Shown here piece by piece: positions 11,204 through 18,177 of a stretch of DNA of 49,127 nucleotides. The DNA is from Candidatus Poseidoniaceae archaeon (GTDB lineage: Archaea > Thermoplasmatota > Poseidoniia > Poseidoniales > Poseidoniaceae), in NCBI GenBank assembly GCA_028822845.1, contig JAPKCS010000011.1:1-49127 (forward strand), written 5' to 3'. The notes beneath the pieces are model-generated. The model saw nothing but the letters and a program-made list of their open reading frames with translations, had not been told where the DNA came from and made no database searches. How positions within the stretch are numbered: the first letter of the stretch is position 1; the number at the start of each line of letters is the position of its first letter. A program made the translations under genes and the position numbers.

Positions 11204-11269
11204 TTCACTTTCACTTGAACCTGCTCGGGTCTCACGAACGATGGTCAACGGTGGCGGAGATTCCCACCT

Positions 11270-11557
11270 ATGGGACGAACGGTACCAACTTGGCGAACGC
11301 GAATTGAAAACGAACTTCAGTCGCTGGAGATGTTCAGGCGAGCCCTTCCTTCAACCGAGAAGCCGTTGTTCGATGCGCTTCTCACGGGGGTTCGAAACCG
11401 GCGAACTGCAGGTGGCATGTTGCCCTCACATGATGTCTGGAAGCCCATGCTGCTTTCCATGTTGATCGAGTTGATGGTTCAGAATGCCAAACTCGAACGA
11501 CGCTTGGACGTTCTTGAAACGGCCGAGGTGATGGGCGATGAGCCGGCCCATTCTTGA
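11270..11557 (+). CDS. Small helical protein overlapping polB2, 95 aa
   Basis: No family is recognised. The sequence is rich in Arg, Leu and Met. A first helix-like part lies at residues 8-48, and a LPSHDVWKPM turn leads into a leucine-rich helix (residues 58-88) that could form a coiled coil. There is no export signal. It follows serA on the same strand after 66 nt and overlaps the polymerase gene by 20 nt, so the two are probably translated from one message. A partner or adaptor of the polymerase is a reasonable inference. An ATG at 11241 in another frame opens a shorter, less protein-like frame that does not reach the polymerase. Confidence 0.65.
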   Translation: MGRTVPTWRTRIENELQSLEMFRRALPSTEKPLFDALLTGVRNRRTAGGMLPSHDVWKPMLLSMLIELMVQNAKLERRLDVLETAEVMGDEPAHS

Positions 11558-13961
11558 TGTTCAAAGCGCCATCAACGGGACTTCAATGGATGTGTGGTTG
11601 CTCGATCGTGAGCATGGGGCAGTCAAGGTCAATGTCCCTTGGTGCCCTTCAATTCACGTCCATGCAACCCGGCATCGGTTGAAGCATCTGTGGGCTTGGT
11701 TGGAACAACCTGAGATTCGAGATCGTTTTGGCGTTGGCATGATGCGAACGCACCGTTCGCGACTTTCATTGGATGCTTCTGAAGTGGATGATGTGCTGGA
11801 AATCGATGTCCACAACAGTTGGAACATGAGGAAACTTGCAGCCCACATTGAAACCAGAGGCCAGTACCGTCATCACACTCTTTATTCGGTCGACGCTCAC
11901 TTAGCGCAGCGTTTTCTGGTTGAGTATGGCGTGTCGCCATTCCAACGGGTGGAATGGGACGGAGCTACATTTCAAGCAACGCAACGCTCCTGGCAACTAC
12001 CAGAACTCAGCGTTGTTCACATGAGCGTCACCTACCGAACCAACAACGGGTTCCACACAGAAGAGGCCGAAATTGACGGCATCGAATTCCGGGCCTGTTC
12101 CTCAGATGGTCAATGCGATCTTGATGCCCCGCCCATGCGCTCACTCATTCGAGCGAATCATCGAGATTCAGAGATGTTCTTGGGGCATCTGGAAGCGGTT
12201 ATGGCCGAGTACAATCCTGATGTGCTGTTGACGCACGGTGGCGATGGTCTTCATTTTCCGGCGCTGATGCGGCTGGCCAAAAAAGCGGGTGTGACCTTGT
12301 CGCTCAGCCGTGATGACCGTCCACTGGCGGCTCGGACCTCTGCTCGAACCGTTCACTCGTATGGCCAAACCCTGCATAAGGACGGGTATGTTCCATTGTA
12401 CGGTCGCCTCCACATCGATCAAAACAGCAGCTTCATCGTTCGTGAGGGTGGTTTACTCGGTCTGTTTGAACTGGCACAGCATTCGCAACAATCCCCTCAA
12501 GACATCTCACGATTGTCGCCGGGGTCTGTGATCAGTGCGATTCAAATGCGCACGGCGATGGAGGATGGGGTGCTTGTTCCATGGAAGAAAAACCGTCCTG
12601 AGGATACCAAAACTGCTTGGGCGTTGCTTCATGCAGACCGGGGTGGCTTGTACCTTGACAGCAAACCCGGCGTGTATGCCCACGTGATCGAACTCGACTT
12701 CGCGAGCCTCTTTCCAAGCATCATTGCCACACGGAACATCTCCACAGAGACCCTTAACTGCCCGTGTTGCCAAGCCAAAGAAACGCCTGATGCCAGCCAT
12801 TTCGTTCCGCTTCACCCTGCTGCTGCAGAACGGGCATTTACTGAACGACACACAAAACGTCACTTCGGTGCGGGGCTGTTCCCAATCGCTTCTCCAAACG
12901 CTCTTCCCGTCCCTGGCCTTTCTTCACACACATGCGGGCAAATTCACGGCTTCCTCGGACGCATTGTGGCACCTTTAATTGAGCGAAGGCGTCAATTGAA
13001 GCTTCAAATCCTCACCAAAGGTGACCGTTTCGATCAACAACAAAATGCTCTCAAGTGGTTGCTCGTAACGTGTTTTGGATACACCGGATACAAGAATGCT
13101 CGATTTGGACGCATTGAAGCCCACGAAGCGATTTGCGCTTGGGCTCGCGATATTCTTCTCGAAACCATTGCTATGGCGGAAGAAGACGGTTGGGAAGTGC
13201 TGCACGCCATCGTTGATTGTGTTTGGATCCAGGACCGACGCCATCGAACTGCAGAACAACGTCGGATCGATGCTCATGCCTTTGCTCAACGGGTCACAGA
13301 ACGTGTGGGGATCCCTCTTGAATTCGAAGACATGTACCGCTTCATCGGTTTTGTTCCGAGCCGTGTTCACGGGGCTGGTTCATTGACGAAGTACTGGGCG
13401 TTTGGAGAGCGTGGGCTGAAAGTCCGAGGCATCGAACAGCGACAACATTCGACCTGTGTCTGGGTTGCCAACATGCAACAAAGAGCGCTTCAAATGCTCG
13501 TCGAGCACTCCAACGACATCGATGGTGTTCCTGGTCTAAAAGCACAAAAAGCAGTCGTTTCGCTGTTGCAGCAACAGATTCAGCGCCTCGAGCGGAATGA
13601 AGTTGGGCTGGACGAACTTGTTGTCGCACGCCGAGTTACTCGGGATTTGGATGACTTTCATGTGGCGACCCTCACTCACGCAGCGTTGCTTCGAGGTCGC
13701 CTTCACGGTGTGACCATTCCCCCAGGTGGCAAAGTACGCTTTGCCGTTCTTGCTTCAACTGGGATGGTGCAACATGAACGGGTGATCTTACTCGAAGAGT
13801 TGGATGATGACCAACACCGGTCCAAACGTCCCGATGTGGACCATTACAGAGCGCTGGCCATCCGTGCAATCTGGGCCATTGTGGCACCTTTCGGATGGGA
13901 TGAAGAAGAAGTGTGTGTCGGTCAGCGTCGATCATCGCTGGATGCTTACATGGAGCAGTGA
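11538..13961 (+). CDS. polB2: Family B DNA polymerase, PolB2-like, with degraded exonuclease
   Basis: An 807-aa B-family polymerase. Motif A is intact (DFASLFPS, Asp387). Motif B is recognisable (Lys506 to GY at 514-515). Motif C, normally YGDTDS, reads HAIVDCVW, so the first Asp is Ile and only the second (Asp560) remains. The proofreading domain has lost its catalytic residues: the FDIET-like Exo I site reads VVHMSV (159-164), Exo II (Asn...Phe-Asp) reads HGGDGLHF (233-240), and the Exo III region before SRLSPGS appears shortened, without its Tyr/Asp pair. This matches the archaeal PolB2 group, in which motif decay is known and activity has been debated. If active, it would be an error-prone gap or bypass polymerase; replication in euryarchaea relies mainly on PolD and PolB1/B3, which are not in this window. 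The start overlaps the small gene upstream. Confidence 0.85.
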   Translation: MSRPILDVQSAINGTSMDVWLLDREHGAVKVNVPWCPSIHVHATRHRLKHLWAWLEQPEIRDRFGVGMMRTHRSRLSLDASEVDDVLEIDVHNSWNMRKLAAHIETRGQYRHHTLYSVDAHLAQRFLVEYGVSPFQRVEWDGATFQATQRSWQLPELSVVHMSVTYRTNNGFHTEEAEIDGIEFRACSSDGQCDLDAPPMRSLIRANHRDSEMFLGHLEAVMAEYNPDVLLTHGGDGLHFPALMRLAKKAGVTLSLSRDDRPLAARTSARTVHSYGQTLHKDGYVPLYGRLHIDQNSSFIVREGGLLGLFELAQHSQQSPQDISRLSPGSVISAIQMRTAMEDGVLVPWKKNRPEDTKTAWALLHADRGGLYLDSKPGVYAHVIELDFASLFPSIIATRNISTETLNCPCCQAKETPDASHFVPLHPAAAERAFTERHTKRHFGAGLFPIASPNALPVPGLSSHTCGQIHGFLGRIVAPLIERRRQLKLQILTKGDRFDQQQNALKWLLVTCFGYTGYKNARFGRIEAHEAICAWARDILLETIAMAEEDGWEVLHAIVDCVWIQDRRHRTAEQRRIDAHAFAQRVTERVGIPLEFEDMYRFIGFVPSRVHGAGSLTKYWAFGERGLKVRGIEQRQHSTCVWVANMQQRALQMLVEHSNDIDGVPGLKAQKAVVSLLQQQIQRLERNEVGLDELVVARRVTRDLDDFHVATLTHAALLRGRLHGVTIPPGGKVRFAVLASTGMVQHERVILLEELDDDQHRSKRPDVDHYRALAIRAIWAIVAPFGWDEEEVCVGQRRSSLDAYMEQ

Positions 13962-14046: not shown

Positions 14047-15057
14047 TCAAAGTTGACTCGATTCCGGATTTGTTTCAGTTCTGAAGTATCGGTAGAAGAA
14101 GTACAACGACACTCCAGTCAATACGTGCCACACAGCATGGTATTGGAACAGTGAATCAGGGTTGCATGCTGCCTCGCCGCTGCGGCCATAGCGCCATACG
14201 ATGTTCCCCACAATGTAGCAGCCGAATCCAATCCACAAATCAGGTCGAGCTTTTCGAAGAAGGGTCTGTCCGGGGTTGAAGTGGAGCGCCAATGCGATGC
14301 CGATGAACATCAAACATAGGATGATGATTTGCACGGTTGGGGCGCCAACAGAAAGCGTGATGCATGCCAGAAGTGGAACTCTAATCATCCATGACAACCG
14401 ATTTCCACTGAGGTTTTTTGTCTCCTGTATCAGCCAAACACCGATGTACAAGGACCACAAGTAATCACGAGTGATGCTGGTCAGTTTTAGATCACGTGAC
14501 CCTGAAAAGTTTTCAATGAGGATGATGTTGGCGTTGGCAGCAAAAGTGTCCAACAGGGCAGTCAACACGAACACGCAGAAAAACACGGATAAGAAAAATC
14601 TGTCACTCCAGCGGTATTGGCGGCTGAGGTTGTAATAAATGGGGAAGGAGATGAAAAACAACATGCCGGTCCAATCCATGCTGGTGCCCCAGTTGGTGTT
14701 CGTTCCATGCATGGCAAAACTACCGACTCCAATATAGATTGAACCGGTTGCAAAAAGAATCGGATAGACGCTCCGTTCAAGCATTGGGTTTGTTGCTTTC
14801 TCCCTGCTTGTGGGCAGGTTCCACAAAACCACGAGCCCAACAAACACATAGGTCAAGTTGGACAGCGTGTTCATCGGTTCCTTGATCAGCCCATCTGAGA
14901 TTCCCTCACAGAAGTTGGTAGCGGACTCTATTGGCTCGACGGCCCATGTTGAGGCACCAAGGATGACGTACATTGTGGCAAGAAGGGCCAGTATTCCGAT
15001 GGAAACAACAAACTCCCGCTTTTGTTCGAACAGCGTCGAAAACGATTGTTTGGTCAT
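14047..15057 (-). CDS. Ceramidase/CREST-superfamily membrane hydrolase-like protein
   Basis: An integral membrane protein of about 336 aa with roughly seven or more hydrophobic helices. Features of the alkaline ceramidase/CREST superfamily appear in order: CEGISDG then EPMNTLSNL near the first loop, a Ser and His in GSFAMHGT, MDWTGM, and a C-terminal HAVWH. In this superfamily the Ser, Asp and three His form a zinc site that hydrolyses amide bonds in lipids. Archaea do not normally make ceramides, so the substrate is unknown; another lipid amide or membrane-sensing role is possible. A GTG at 15153 would add 32 residues, but Met at 15057 is preferred because an AT-rich TATA-like stretch lies about 25 nt before it. 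It is divergent from the CDP-alcohol phosphatidyltransferase. Confidence 0.72.
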   Translation of the reverse strand: MTKQSFSTLFEQKREFVVSIGILALLATMYVILGASTWAVEPIESATNFCEGISDGLIKEPMNTLSNLTYVFVGLVVLWNLPTSREKATNPMLERSVYPILFATGSIYIGVGSFAMHGTNTNWGTSMDWTGMLFFISFPIYYNLSRQYRWSDRFFLSVFFCVFVLTALLDTFAANANIILIENFSGSRDLKLTSITRDYLWSLYIGVWLIQETKNLSGNRLSWMIRVPLLACITLSVGAPTVQIIILCLMFIGIALALHFNPGQTLLRKARPDLWIGFGCYIVGNIVWRYGRSGEAACNPDSLFQYHAVWHVLTGVSLYFFYRYFRTETNPESSQL

Positions 15058-15203
15058 GGCTCGGCGACATCGCAGTAGTATTTGTTTCTGAGTATTGAAC
15101 AGCAACATTGACCCAACAGGCAGAGGCCATCTGAACTCATCGACGTTGCTCACTTGCTATTCTGATACACTTTTCGGCTTCAATTCATACTCAACGCATA
15201 TCA

Positions 15204-15992
15204 GTGAAGTGCTTTACGCTCAGGTCGGGTGACTCTTTGGGAGTGAAGAAATATGGGGACCGCGAGGTCGTTGATTTGTCCGAATGGGGGCGACCAATCG
15301 CTCGTGTCATGGCCAACTTCCTCAAGGAGAAACCAATTTCAGTGATGCAGGTTACCAACATTCACTTTGTTCTCTCGCTCTACTGTGCTTGGCTGATCTT
15401 TGAAGGGAGCCCAATCCTTGCTTGCTCATTGCTCATTGTGAAGGGTGTGATTGACGCAGTCGATGGCGAATTGGCCCGCATGCGCGAACGGCCATCGCAC
15501 GTCGGACGGTACTGGGATACCGTGGCTGATACCCTCGGCCTGGTTGCTGTAATGTGGGCGTTCGCTACCGTGTTGAACTGGGAGGTTGTTTTCACCGGTG
15601 CCATGATTTTGGCGACCTTATTCCAATATTCACTGTTCAATCACTATTCAATCCTGATGCGTGCCCTCGGTTCCGGGGACGATACCAGTCGAATTGATGA
15701 GCGCGTCCGCCCGGTCGCTCACCCTTGGGAAAAGCAGAGCAATGTCAACTTCTTGCATTTCATCTACCTGTGCTTTTTCAGTTGGCAAGACCGAATCATC
15801 TCCGCATTAACCGGCAAAGGATCAGAAAATCTCGTGTTCGAGTTAACCGTTTCTTCTTCACTGGGATACGGCGCACAATCAATCGTGATCTTTTTGCTAG
15901 CATTGACGCAGAACCTCGATTACTTGCCTCACTTGGTCTTGGGTGTCAATGGTTCGTTGATGGCCTTGGTCATCCTTCGCAGTCGAATCTAG
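15204..15992 (+). CDS. CDP-alcohol phosphatidyltransferase family protein
   Basis: A membrane enzyme that transfers a polar head group (or alcohol phosphate) onto a CDP-activated lipid. The signature DxxDGxxAR...GxxxDxxxD is complete: Asp84, Asp87, Gly88, Ala91, Arg92, Gly101, Asp105 and Asp109. Hydrophobic helices surround it and continue to the C-terminus, and the length of 262 aa fits the family. The head group (inositol phosphate, glycerol phosphate, serine or other) cannot be told from sequence. The start is a GTG at 15204; a second GTG at 15243 would begin right before KKYGDREV and is equally plausible. It may help make archaetidyl phospholipids together with the geranylgeranyl reductase at 42983. 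Confidence 0.85.
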   Translation: MKCFTLRSGDSLGVKKYGDREVVDLSEWGRPIARVMANFLKEKPISVMQVTNIHFVLSLYCAWLIFEGSPILACSLLIVKGVIDAVDGELARMRERPSHVGRYWDTVADTLGLVAVMWAFATVLNWEVVFTGAMILATLFQYSLFNHYSILMRALGSGDDTSRIDERVRPVAHPWEKQSNVNFLHFIYLCFFSWQDRIISALTGKGSENLVFELTVSSSLGYGAQSIVIFLLALTQNLDYLPHLVLGVNGSLMALVILRSRI

Positions 15993-16212: not shown

Positions 16213-16923
16213 TCAATGCAAACCGGTCTCTGTTAATTGATCAAACACACGAAAGAGATTCATCGTGATCCTTGGCTCTGGCCACGTGCCAGAAGTTCCG
16301 CTTGGTTGGTGAACCAACCATCTTCGGTGGCGGCTTGTTTTGGAAATCCTTTGTTCGCTGAGGTGTTGAGATGAACGCCGCTCAATCATGGCCAACAGAT
16401 GTTGATGCCGCTTGGAAACCGGTTCGGTGGCCGTGATGACAATAACGGCCGTGTTGCTCTTTTCGGCTAAGTCTTGGAGTTGAATGCTGATGTTGCGCAT
16501 AAGACTCCGGGCCTCATGGTCCCCCACTTGCGTGTCCAAATGCATGGCAATCGGTCCATCGATCACCACCAATGGGGACCGAGTGATCGAAACTTCCCTT
16601 GGCAGGCGTTCAACCAAGGTGGCCAGTTGATGAACGGTAAAACCACGGCCGATGAACAAACGATGAAGGTGGTCACGTGCTGAAGGCTCATGGCTCGGAA
16701 AGCAGTTCAAAATACGGCTTGGGTCAATGCGCGATGCACCATCCACCCAATGGACGCTTTCGCCTCGCATCAAGGCGGCTACGGTCCAAGCCTCAGCGTA
16801 CTTCCTCATGCTTTGTCCTGCACGCCCATGACCGTGCAACTGGTAGATACCGCCCCGCATTGGGGCGATCGTTGTGAGGTCCAATGCTGCATCGCTTCGT
16901 TGAAGAGGGAAGTTGACGGTCAT
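16213..16923 (-). CDS. RecA/RadB-like ATPase paralog with degenerate Walker A
   Basis: A 236-aa RecA-fold protein. The P-loop position reads GHGRAGQS (31-38), which keeps both Gly and the Ser but has Gln where the catalytic Lys belongs. Walker B is plausible (LVVID, Asp122). The segment RGFTVHQLATLVERL resembles Rad51/RadB paralogs, and a hydrophobic strand (TAVIVITATEPV) follows where the sensor strand is expected. The protein lacks the N-terminal HhH domain of RadA and is as short as RadB. Loss of the Lys suggests weak or no ATP hydrolysis, so a mediator or scaffold role is likely. It is divergent from a Y-family polymerase with only 120 nt between start codons, recalling bacterial ImuA beside ImuB. 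The paralog assignment rests on motif order, not on a search. Confidence 0.7.
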   Translation of the reverse strand: MTVNFPLQRSDAALDLTTIAPMRGGIYQLHGHGRAGQSMRKYAEAWTVAALMRGESVHWVDGASRIDPSRILNCFPSHEPSARDHLHRLFIGRGFTVHQLATLVERLPREVSITRSPLVVIDGPIAMHLDTQVGDHEARSLMRNISIQLQDLAEKSNTAVIVITATEPVSKRHQHLLAMIERRSSQHLSEQRISKTSRHRRWLVHQPSGTSGTWPEPRITMNLFRVFDQLTETGLH

Positions 16924-16961
16924 ACTTCGGAAGGTTTGGAACCCGGTCCTCTTTCCTTCGG

Positions 16962-16979
16962 TTCACCCCCTCGGGTGAA
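16962..16979. promoter_or_regulatory. Inverted repeat in the divergent promoter of recA-like and dinB
   Basis: TTCACCC, a 4-nt spacer and GGGTGAA form a perfect 7-bp dyad. It lies 39 nt upstream of the recA-like start (16923) and 64 nt upstream of the Y-polymerase start (17044). The place and symmetry suit an operator that controls both genes. No regulator is known, and archaea lack LexA. Confidence 0.45.
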
Positions 16980-17043
16980 AGTGAATGTCATCAGGTCGAA
17001 AGGCGTCATCAACTTGAAACACCGTGGCCACTCGAACAGGGTC

Positions 17044-18177
17044 ATGAAGGAGGAGAGTGCAGGGACCTCTTCCTCAAACGAACGCATTCTTGTTCATTGT
17101 GATTTGGATGCGTTTTTTGCTTCGGTGGAAATCCTTCACAGAAGTTTAGATCCAGAACGTCCATTGATCATTGGTTCAGATCCCAAAGGCGGTCGCGGGC
17201 GTGGTATCGTTTCAACATGCAACTACGCAGCCAGAGCGTTTGGTATTCGCTCAGCCATGCCGATTGGAGAAGCGTGGCGGCGATGCCCAGGTGCCCCGTT
17301 TGGCACAGGGCACTACATTCACGGCACGCGAGGTTTGTACAACCGTGCCTCGAGAAAAGTAATGGCAATGTTACGTCCACCAGCAGAGCATTTTGAACAA
17401 GCGGGCATCGATGAAGCCTACCTCGACATCACGAATGAAGTCGAAGGTGACTGGGATCGAGCTTATGCCCTCTGCCGTGAACTGCAAAAGACGATTGAAG
17501 ATCAGTTGGGCCTCACCGCTTCGTTCGGTATTGCACCGACTCGAATCTTGGCTAAAATGTCAAGCGAAATCAACAAACCAAACGGTATTTTTAGGATGCT
17601 GCCAGATGAAACTCACGAATTCTTTGTCGAACGCTCGTTGCGTGAAGTTCCCGGTATTGGTCCGAAAAGAGCCACACAATTAGCAGAGTGGGGGTTCAAC
17701 ACCGTCGATGAGGCCTATGAGTTGGGTGAATTGGCATTGGGGCGGATCGCAGGTGAACGGTTTGCGACGTGGCTTATCCGCGTCGTCGATGGTGACACAA
17801 GCAGTGAAGTGAGCCCTCTTCGAAGCCGAAAATCAATTGGTAAGGAGAACACCTTCGCCAGCGATGAACACGACACTGAACGCGTGTTGGAACACCTCAC
17901 AACACTTGTTGAGACGGTGATGTCGAAAGCCAAGGGCATTGGTGTAGCAGGGCGCTTATGTGAAGTCAAGGTTCGCTACACTGGGTTTGAAACTCACACG
18001 CATGGGCGTTCTATTCCTGTGGCGATGGATGATGTCGATGTGTTCACGCGCTTGGCCACACGCTTGTTTGCTCTGAACGTGGATCACCAGCGACCAATCC
18101 GCCTCATTGGATTTCGTCTTGGTCAACTCGATATGCCACCAACTCGGCAAGCCAAGTTAGCTCTCGAAGAGGAATGA
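17044..18177 (+). CDS. dinB: Y-family translesion DNA polymerase (Dpo4/DinB)
   Basis: A 377-aa lesion-bypass polymerase that copies past damaged bases with low fidelity. Palm carboxylates are present: Asp20 and Asp22 in HCDLDAFFASVE, and Asp123/Glu124 in GIDEAYLD. Phe25 at the steric-gate position excludes ribonucleotides. The finger motif STCNYAARAFGIRSAMPI is intact, the helix-hairpin-helix VPGIGPKRA lies near residue 205, and a little-finger domain ends the protein. No convincing PIP box is seen at the C-terminus. Met at 17044 is chosen because the family starts just there; the open frame further upstream lies across the divergent gene. The stop is directly adjacent to the convergent valS stop. 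Pairing with the RecA-like gene suggests DNA damage tolerance. Confidence 0.92.
   Translation: MKEESAGTSSSNERILVHCDLDAFFASVEILHRSLDPERPLIIGSDPKGGRGRGIVSTCNYAARAFGIRSAMPIGEAWRRCPGAPFGTGHYIHGTRGLYNRASRKVMAMLRPPAEHFEQAGIDEAYLDITNEVEGDWDRAYALCRELQKTIEDQLGLTASFGIAPTRILAKMSSEINKPNGIFRMLPDETHEFFVERSLREVPGIGPKRATQLAEWGFNTVDEAYELGELALGRIAGERFATWLIRVVDGDTSSEVSPLRSRKSIGKENTFASDEHDTERVLEHLTTLVETVMSKAKGIGVAGRLCEVKVRYTGFETHTHGRSIPVAMDDVDVFTRLATRLFALNVDHQRPIRLIGFRLGQLDMPPTRQAKLALEEE

Follow-up and report, generated by a model that had tools for sequence, protein, structure and literature searches.

Genes at the locus

The window, that is, the whole stretch of 49,127 nt analysed here, comes from the 1.92-Mb genome (57 contigs) of a member of the marine group II archaea (Poseidoniaceae). 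The genes and short elements with which we are concerned are collected in Table 1.

Table 1. Genes and sequence elements of the polB2–dpo4 region, in window coordinates
Feature	Position	Strand	Remarks
TTCACTTTCAC	11204..11214	+	immediately behind the stop codon of serA; 55 nt upstream of PPB2 (start codon)
PPB2 (arCOG07300)	11270..11557	+	95 aa; small helical PolB2 partner; starts MGRTVPTWR
PolB2	11538..13961	+	807 aa; proofreading-deficient B-family translesion polymerase
Ceramidase-like membrane protein	14047..15153	-	Pfam PF05875, 1.2e-13; not part of the mutasome
CDP-alcohol phosphatidyltransferase	15204..15992	+	Pfam PF01066, 2.7e-13; not part of the mutasome
iRadA	16213..16923	-	236 aa; ATPase-defective RadA/Rad51 homologue without the N-terminal domain
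TTCACTTTCAC	16975..16985	-	midway between iRadA and dpo4 (51 nt to the start of iRadA, 58 nt to that of dpo4)
CATCAACTTGAAACACC	17007..17023	+	conserved, about 20-40 nt upstream of dpo4
Dpo4-type Y-family polymerase	17044..18177	+	377 aa; Pfam IMS 9.4e-37, IMS_C 1.6e-19

The small ORF that precedes polB2, and overlaps its start by 20 nt, was absent from the first-pass annotation of this DNA. It possesses both hallmarks of PPB2, an N-terminal MGRT and Arg9, which are described as invariant in that family (PMC11791011). Across 16 aligned sequences, residues M1-V5 and R9 do not vary, and PPB2 accompanies PolB2 in 20/20 genomes.

PolB2 itself matches the NCBIfam model PRK05761 (type B DNA polymerase, Dpo2 type) at 1e-113. 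Motif A (DFASLFPSII) is conserved; motif C reads IVD instead of DTD, so that the first Asp is lost, and the D(K/R) motif, D367-R368, lies upstream of motif A, the last two being invariant in 16 aligned sequences. The canonical exonuclease acidic residues are not visible in this alignment. At the C terminus there is a PCNA-box-like SSLDAYM, where relatives have TTLLDF or TLFDFF. A mobile or viral origin was rejected, the viral contig collection that was searched containing no relatives of PolB2.

The RecA-like protein has the P-loop GHGRAGQS, a Walker A motif with Gln replacing Lys, as the first-pass annotation had noted, and it belongs to the Rad51/RadA family. Its AF2 model (pLDDT 81.5, pTM 0.82) matched RAD51/DMC1/RadA folds, with E values down to 4.5e-11, which sets aside the concern that this small ATPase might be an unrelated P-loop protein. 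When aligned against the PDB, RadA (E=5e-9) came ahead of RadB (1.2e-5).

One should not take the Lys-to-Gln change as the defining loss. The Walker A Lys is retained in many relatives of iRadA and replaced by Q, S or R in most of the window's clade, which makes the change a late step. It is the catalytic Glu of the WIDTE motif that is replaced (WIDGA/G) in every relative compared, the motif reading WVDGA in the window protein. Many of these relatives (L099, L141, L144 and others) have an intact Walker A, for example GSGFGGKS, despite the lost Glu; judging from their sequences, they may bind ATP without hydrolysing it.

For dpo4, the listed ORF start at 16690 includes spurious upstream sequence. 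The start is probably the ATG at 17044, from about which the nearest relatives align at 84-87% identity. The catalytic motifs HCDLDAFF and IDEAYLD are intact, and dpo4 diverges from iRadA with 120 nt between the two starts (16924-17043), in agreement with the earlier description of an intact Dpo4-type polymerase lying head to head with the RecA-like gene. The two lipid-related genes reported between polB2 and iRadA are likewise real, yet they occur at this site only in the window and in one further, nearly identical genome (L140), whose PolB2 is 96% identical; they are a lineage-specific insertion.

Partners of iRadA and the position of dpo4

The PolB2 mutasome was described in silico (Timinskas 2025) as PolB2 together with the small helical PPB2 and iRadA, a RadA homologue that has neither the N-terminal domain nor the ATPase residues (PMC11791011). 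The product of 16213-16923 is iRadA, the third subunit of that assembly: it combines the Rad51 fold with the absence of the N-terminal domain and the loss of ATPase residues, and its gene accompanies polB2 and PPB2.

Co-occurrence was counted in 60 relatives. All three genes were present in 20/60 and none in 40/60, with no genome holding just one or two; two extra PolB matches, at 27% identity, are other polymerases. In the genus, on the other hand, 35/36 genomes have dpo4, irrespective of whether the cassette is there. Since iRadA, PolB2 and PPB2 are all-or-none and many genomes possess dpo4 without the cassette, the partner of iRadA should be sought in PolB2/PPB2 and not in Dpo4. This exact co-occurrence upholds the suggestion of the first-pass annotation that the PolB2-like polymerase belongs with the RecA-like protein. 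Gene order was examined in a scan with one genome per species, which yielded 74 loci with all three genes; the order PPB2> PolB2> <iRadA, with iRadA convergent to PolB2, was kept in 74/74. By membership, and as read from its sequence, the window encodes the PolB2 mutasome set (PolB2, PPB2 and iRadA), and by analogy with the published system the three would form a complex in this archaeon. Among the contigs compared, CALDQY010000189.1 (L191) is titled "uncultured Rhodobiaceae bacterium" and is a typical Poseidoniaceae contig, which is probably a mislabelled bin.

The likeness to known PolB2 mutasomes, including the Dpo2 operon of Sulfolobus, extends to the three subunits, each with its diagnostic motifs, to a PolB2 that has lost the first Asp of motif C and proofreading and carries PCNA-box-like tails, and to an ATPase-dead iRadA without its N-terminal domain. 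There are also differences. In the published survey the three genes mostly share one orientation (PMC11791011), whereas here iRadA is convergent to ppb2-polB2 and has its own promoter; in the Poseidoniaceae dpo4 is a stable neighbour, and both promoters carry the UV-type motif described below; and the cassette of the window is split by two lipid genes. Marine group II does not figure in the main text of that survey, nor does any Y-family gene near PolB2 (PMC11791011). The same authors drew the parallel with Escherichia coli Pol V (UmuD'2C-RecA), in which an error-prone polymerase is likewise joined by a small subunit whose N-terminal arm is inserted and by a RecA/Rad51-family protein, and which is damage-inducible (PMC11791011). 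The archaeal set differs from Pol V in having a B-family instead of a Y-family catalyst, an inactive RadA instead of RecA, and a PPB2 that is unrelated to UmuD.

The arrangement serA-PPB2-PolB2-iRadA-dpo4-leuRS, with iRadA and dpo4 divergent, is kept in 43 loci from at least four genera, and the cassette is placed away from dpo4 in 25 loci. Genomes without the cassette have an empty site, in which serA is directly followed by dpo4 and leuRS. Among the 23 Poseidoniaceae genomes in which both genes could be placed, PolB2 and dpo4 lie within about 1.5 kb of each other in 16, from four genera (a count read from result tables, one further genome being split by contig ends); the distance of 3.1 kb in the window is due to the two extra genes. 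The linkage of the RecA-like protein, PolB2 and dpo4, on which the first-pass reading depended, is therefore conserved over several genera. A recent iRadA-dpo4 insertion in one small clade, an idea derived from close relatives, was rejected since the same site is occupied in at least four genera.

The PolB2 tree has three clades of dpo4-site cassettes; the window's clade has as its sister the main group of relocated ones. The simplest reading of these data would be an ancestral cassette at the dpo4 site with later relocation and losses; repeated insertion or recombination at that site is a possible alternative. The whole neighbourhood is syntenic (alaRS, serA, leuRS, RND and aminotransferase genes), and linkage alone is therefore no proof that dpo4 is coupled to the cassette, as it may reflect mere inheritance. 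The link to dpo4 is best explained, from the gene orders compared, as an old and mostly vertically inherited neighbourhood in the Poseidoniaceae. Relocated cassettes often adjoin an SRAP or photolyase-like gene (L199, L201, L205, L206; L141-L143, L150, L152, L153), so that the cassette repeatedly adjoins damage-related genes.

The TTCACTTTCAC element and known damage-response motifs

Exact copies of TTCACTTTCAC number five in the genome, compared with one for a reversed control pattern, and they precede PPB2, iRadA, radA, a 58-aa ORF and tRNA-Glu(CTC). When one mismatch was allowed, the genome scan returned 74 matches versus 28 for the control; this is too many for a regulon, and we therefore used exact matches and conservation. 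With up to two mismatches, the element was found in the upstream regions of PPB2 in 57/72 loci and of iRadA in 42/62 loci, as opposed to 5/282 control upstream regions, counts that partly reflect the shared ancestry of related promoters and, as these are not independent, should not be read as probabilities. It lies mostly at about -55 to -70 in the PPB2 and iRadA regions, with a further conserved block, GGGT..AAA, after it, and is kept where the cassette sits elsewhere, including loci in which iRadA is far from dpo4. In the upstream regions of unlinked dpo4 genes, searched on both strands, TTCACTTTCAC occurred in 0/21. Many genomes, whether dpo4 is linked in them or not, have a somewhat variable form of CATCAACTTGAAACACC in front of this gene, and it is probably the core promoter of dpo4 itself.

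At the canonical radA gene of the window's genome (G000:C27:203328-204362), TTCACTTTCAC lies at position -164 and is joined by an inverted copy at -137. A similar pair, with a TTCA(C/G)TTTC-like sequence near -164 and its inverted partner near -137, precedes radA in most genomes of the genus, whether they have the mutasome or not.

Several further genes carry related elements. A gene for a 205-aa, weakly beta-propeller-like protein (G000:C6:3113-3727; L288, L307), found in most genomes of the genus, has TTCACTTTCA(C/G)TTT at -66 to -68 in 29/30 relatives, the remaining relative being masked by N, and there too GGGTGT or GGGTCT..AAA follows; from its upstream sequence, it is a probable member of the proposed TTCACTTTCAC regulon. 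A conserved 58-aa ORF (MTTTGTHILDALCWTPAAPLIRAARR...; L277:1561-1737, G000:C30), which follows the RFC small subunit gene and for which no Pfam match was found, has a TTCACTTTCAC-type element upstream in several genomes. The tRNA-Glu gene with anticodon CTC (L278:1622-1695, G000:C48) is preceded by such an element as well, also in a second genome (G015, L227).

In Halobacterium NRC-1, TTTCACTTTCA is common to the four genes that were consistently induced by UV-B, with radA1 in first place; it lies about 50 nt ahead of their start codons and was proposed to be the site of a regulator (PMC2556686). TTCACTTTCAC has the same core, TTCACTTTCA, and precedes radA and other damage-associated genes, at about 50-65 nt upstream of the starts in the case of PPB2 and iRadA; a TTTCACTTTCA-like element is thus found upstream both of radA and of candidate co-regulated genes. 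In contrast to Halobacterium, which belongs to another archaeal lineage, the Poseidoniaceae have different putative targets (the mutasome, iRadA, the beta-propeller-like gene, the 58-aa ORF and tRNA-Glu) and an inverted pair further upstream of radA. The shared core, combined with the copy upstream of radA, makes it well supported by comparison that the mutasome would belong to a UV/damage regulon, and we regard TTCACTTTCAC as a putative UV/DNA-damage regulatory element.

Some caution should be employed with a second comparison. The DNA-damage-responsive element (DDRE) of Saccharolobus, ANTTTC, is bound by Orc1-2 (PMC9738581). TTCACTTTCAC contains ACTTTC, which fits this consensus, and the PolB2 gene is a (putative) target in both; the match amounts to six loose bases, however, and such a hexamer does not discriminate, so it is too short for claiming identity with the DDRE. 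In the open-licence literature searched, we found no paper that links the Halobacterium motif, reported in 2008, with PolB2 or marine group II, nor any report of its regulator or of a wider role.

Working model and alternatives

We consider it probable that the locus holds a PolB2 mutasome beside a Dpo4 inserter, with the PPB2-PolB2 and iRadA promoters sharing an 11-bp element of the Halobacterium UV-B type. Following UV or other damage, a regulator acting at TTCACTTTCAC would switch on ppb2-polB2, iRadA and radA, the element being assigned by comparison, and perhaps dpo4 too through the shared divergent gap. By extension from Sulfolobus, where in vitro Dpo4 works first, as inserter, and Dpo2 (PolB2) after it, as extender (PMC8721586), Dpo4 would insert a nucleotide opposite the lesion and PolB2, without proofreading, would extend the distorted end. 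Published models of homologues suggest that the N-terminal arm of PPB2 would reach toward the active site of PolB2 and that the docking of iRadA on PolB2 would use an oligomerisation contact of the Rad51 type, and the PCNA-box-like tails of PolB2 may tether the complex to the clamp.

Joint control of dpo4 is a possibility in this scheme. Sulfolobus Dpo2 is a damage-inducible mutagenic polymerase and Dpo4 a housekeeping enzyme that is not damage-inducible (PMC7390963). Given this, the missing motif at unlinked dpo4 genes and the element that dpo4 has of its own, co-induction of dpo4 should be treated as a prediction and not as a result. The broader proposal is a TTCACTTTCAC-marked, SOS-like sunlight/DNA-damage regulon in marine group II that has common ancestry with the Halobacterium element and would control radA, the PolB2 mutasome, Dpo4 (by way of the shared divergent promoter region) and small proteins; we hold it tentatively, at close to an even chance and leaning slightly against. 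A serious competitor, if one that we think somewhat more apt to be wrong than right, makes dpo4 a housekeeping gene for translesion synthesis, located beside the cassette site by chance, with regulation and function uncoupled from the mutasome. The serA, leuRS, RND and aminotransferase genes are, after all, equally syntenic, and the behaviour of Sulfolobus Dpo4, the CATCAACTTGAAACACC element and the 0/21 count would all fit such hitch-hiking. Against it stand the copy of TTCACTTTCAC in the shared gap, the relocated cassettes that again adjoin photolyase-like or SRAP genes, and the sequential action of Dpo4 and PolB2 in vitro. The element might also be a general promoter component and not a damage operator, as its near-fixed distance of about 55-70 nt from start codons and the GGGT..AAA block behind it would allow; we judge this unlikely in view of its rarity in the genome and in control upstream regions, the distant inverted pair at radA, and the same sequence marking UV-B-induced genes in Halobacterium (PMC2556686).

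Two other readings concern iRadA itself. The first-pass annotation had suggested that the RecA-like protein and the Y-family polymerase might be an archaeal analogue of the ImuA-ImuB mutasome, in which the PolB2-like enzyme could take the place of DnaE2. ImuA is a RecA-fold protein that has lost its ATPase and is encoded near translesion polymerases, and in this outline, though only in outline, the likeness is real: the genes do form a mutasome-like set, one of whose members is a degenerate RecA/RadA protein. That iRadA is an ImuA-like partner of Dpo4 within an ImuA-ImuB-type core is, all the same, distinctly improbable. The short divergent gap in 43 head-to-head loci speaks for it, but iRadA has no linked dpo4 in 25 loci and tracks PolB2/PPB2 exactly, while dpo4 is nearly universal in the genus, and published models put iRadA on PolB2 (PMC11791011). 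Moreover, the active site of ImuB is dead, whereas the window's Y-family enzyme has an intact one, and the second polymerase, with which the RecA-like protein goes, is of the B family, so membership of the ImuA-ImuB family was rejected. The long ORFs around the cluster include none that we could recognise as a C-family DnaE2, and the notion of a DnaE2-like third part was not borne out; the published parallel is with Pol V and not with ImuA-ImuB-DnaE2. As iRadA belongs to PolB2 and not to Dpo4, ImuA-ImuB serves as an analogy. We give scarcely any credence to iRadA acting on its own, without relation to PolB2, as a recombination mediator of the RadB kind. Weak matches to a RadB model (7.9e-05) and to RadB in the PDB exist, but RadA outscores RadB there, the gene follows PolB2 and keeps the same order relative to PPB2-PolB2 in several different places of the genome, co-occurrence is all-or-none, and an iRadA orthologue without PolB2 was found in none of the 60 relatives; RadB orthology was accordingly rejected.

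On the preferred reading, a PolB2 mutasome beside Dpo4, what appears to be new here is the presence of TTCACTTTCAC upstream of PPB2 and iRadA, the convergent gene order and the stable dpo4 neighbour. To our knowledge, little is known of how DNA-damage responses are switched on in archaea outside the Sulfolobales. An element of the Halobacterium type on radA and on the PolB2-mutasome promoters of abundant surface-ocean archaea offers a candidate regulon whose genes can be listed, and the conserved dpo4-PolB2 neighbourhood lends genomic support to an inserter-extender relay that has so far come from Sulfolobus biochemistry. The placing of an error-prone PolB2 complex and a second bypass polymerase behind a UV-type signal suggests an SOS-like response to sunlight, and it predicts that mutagenesis in marine group II would be induced by sunlight.
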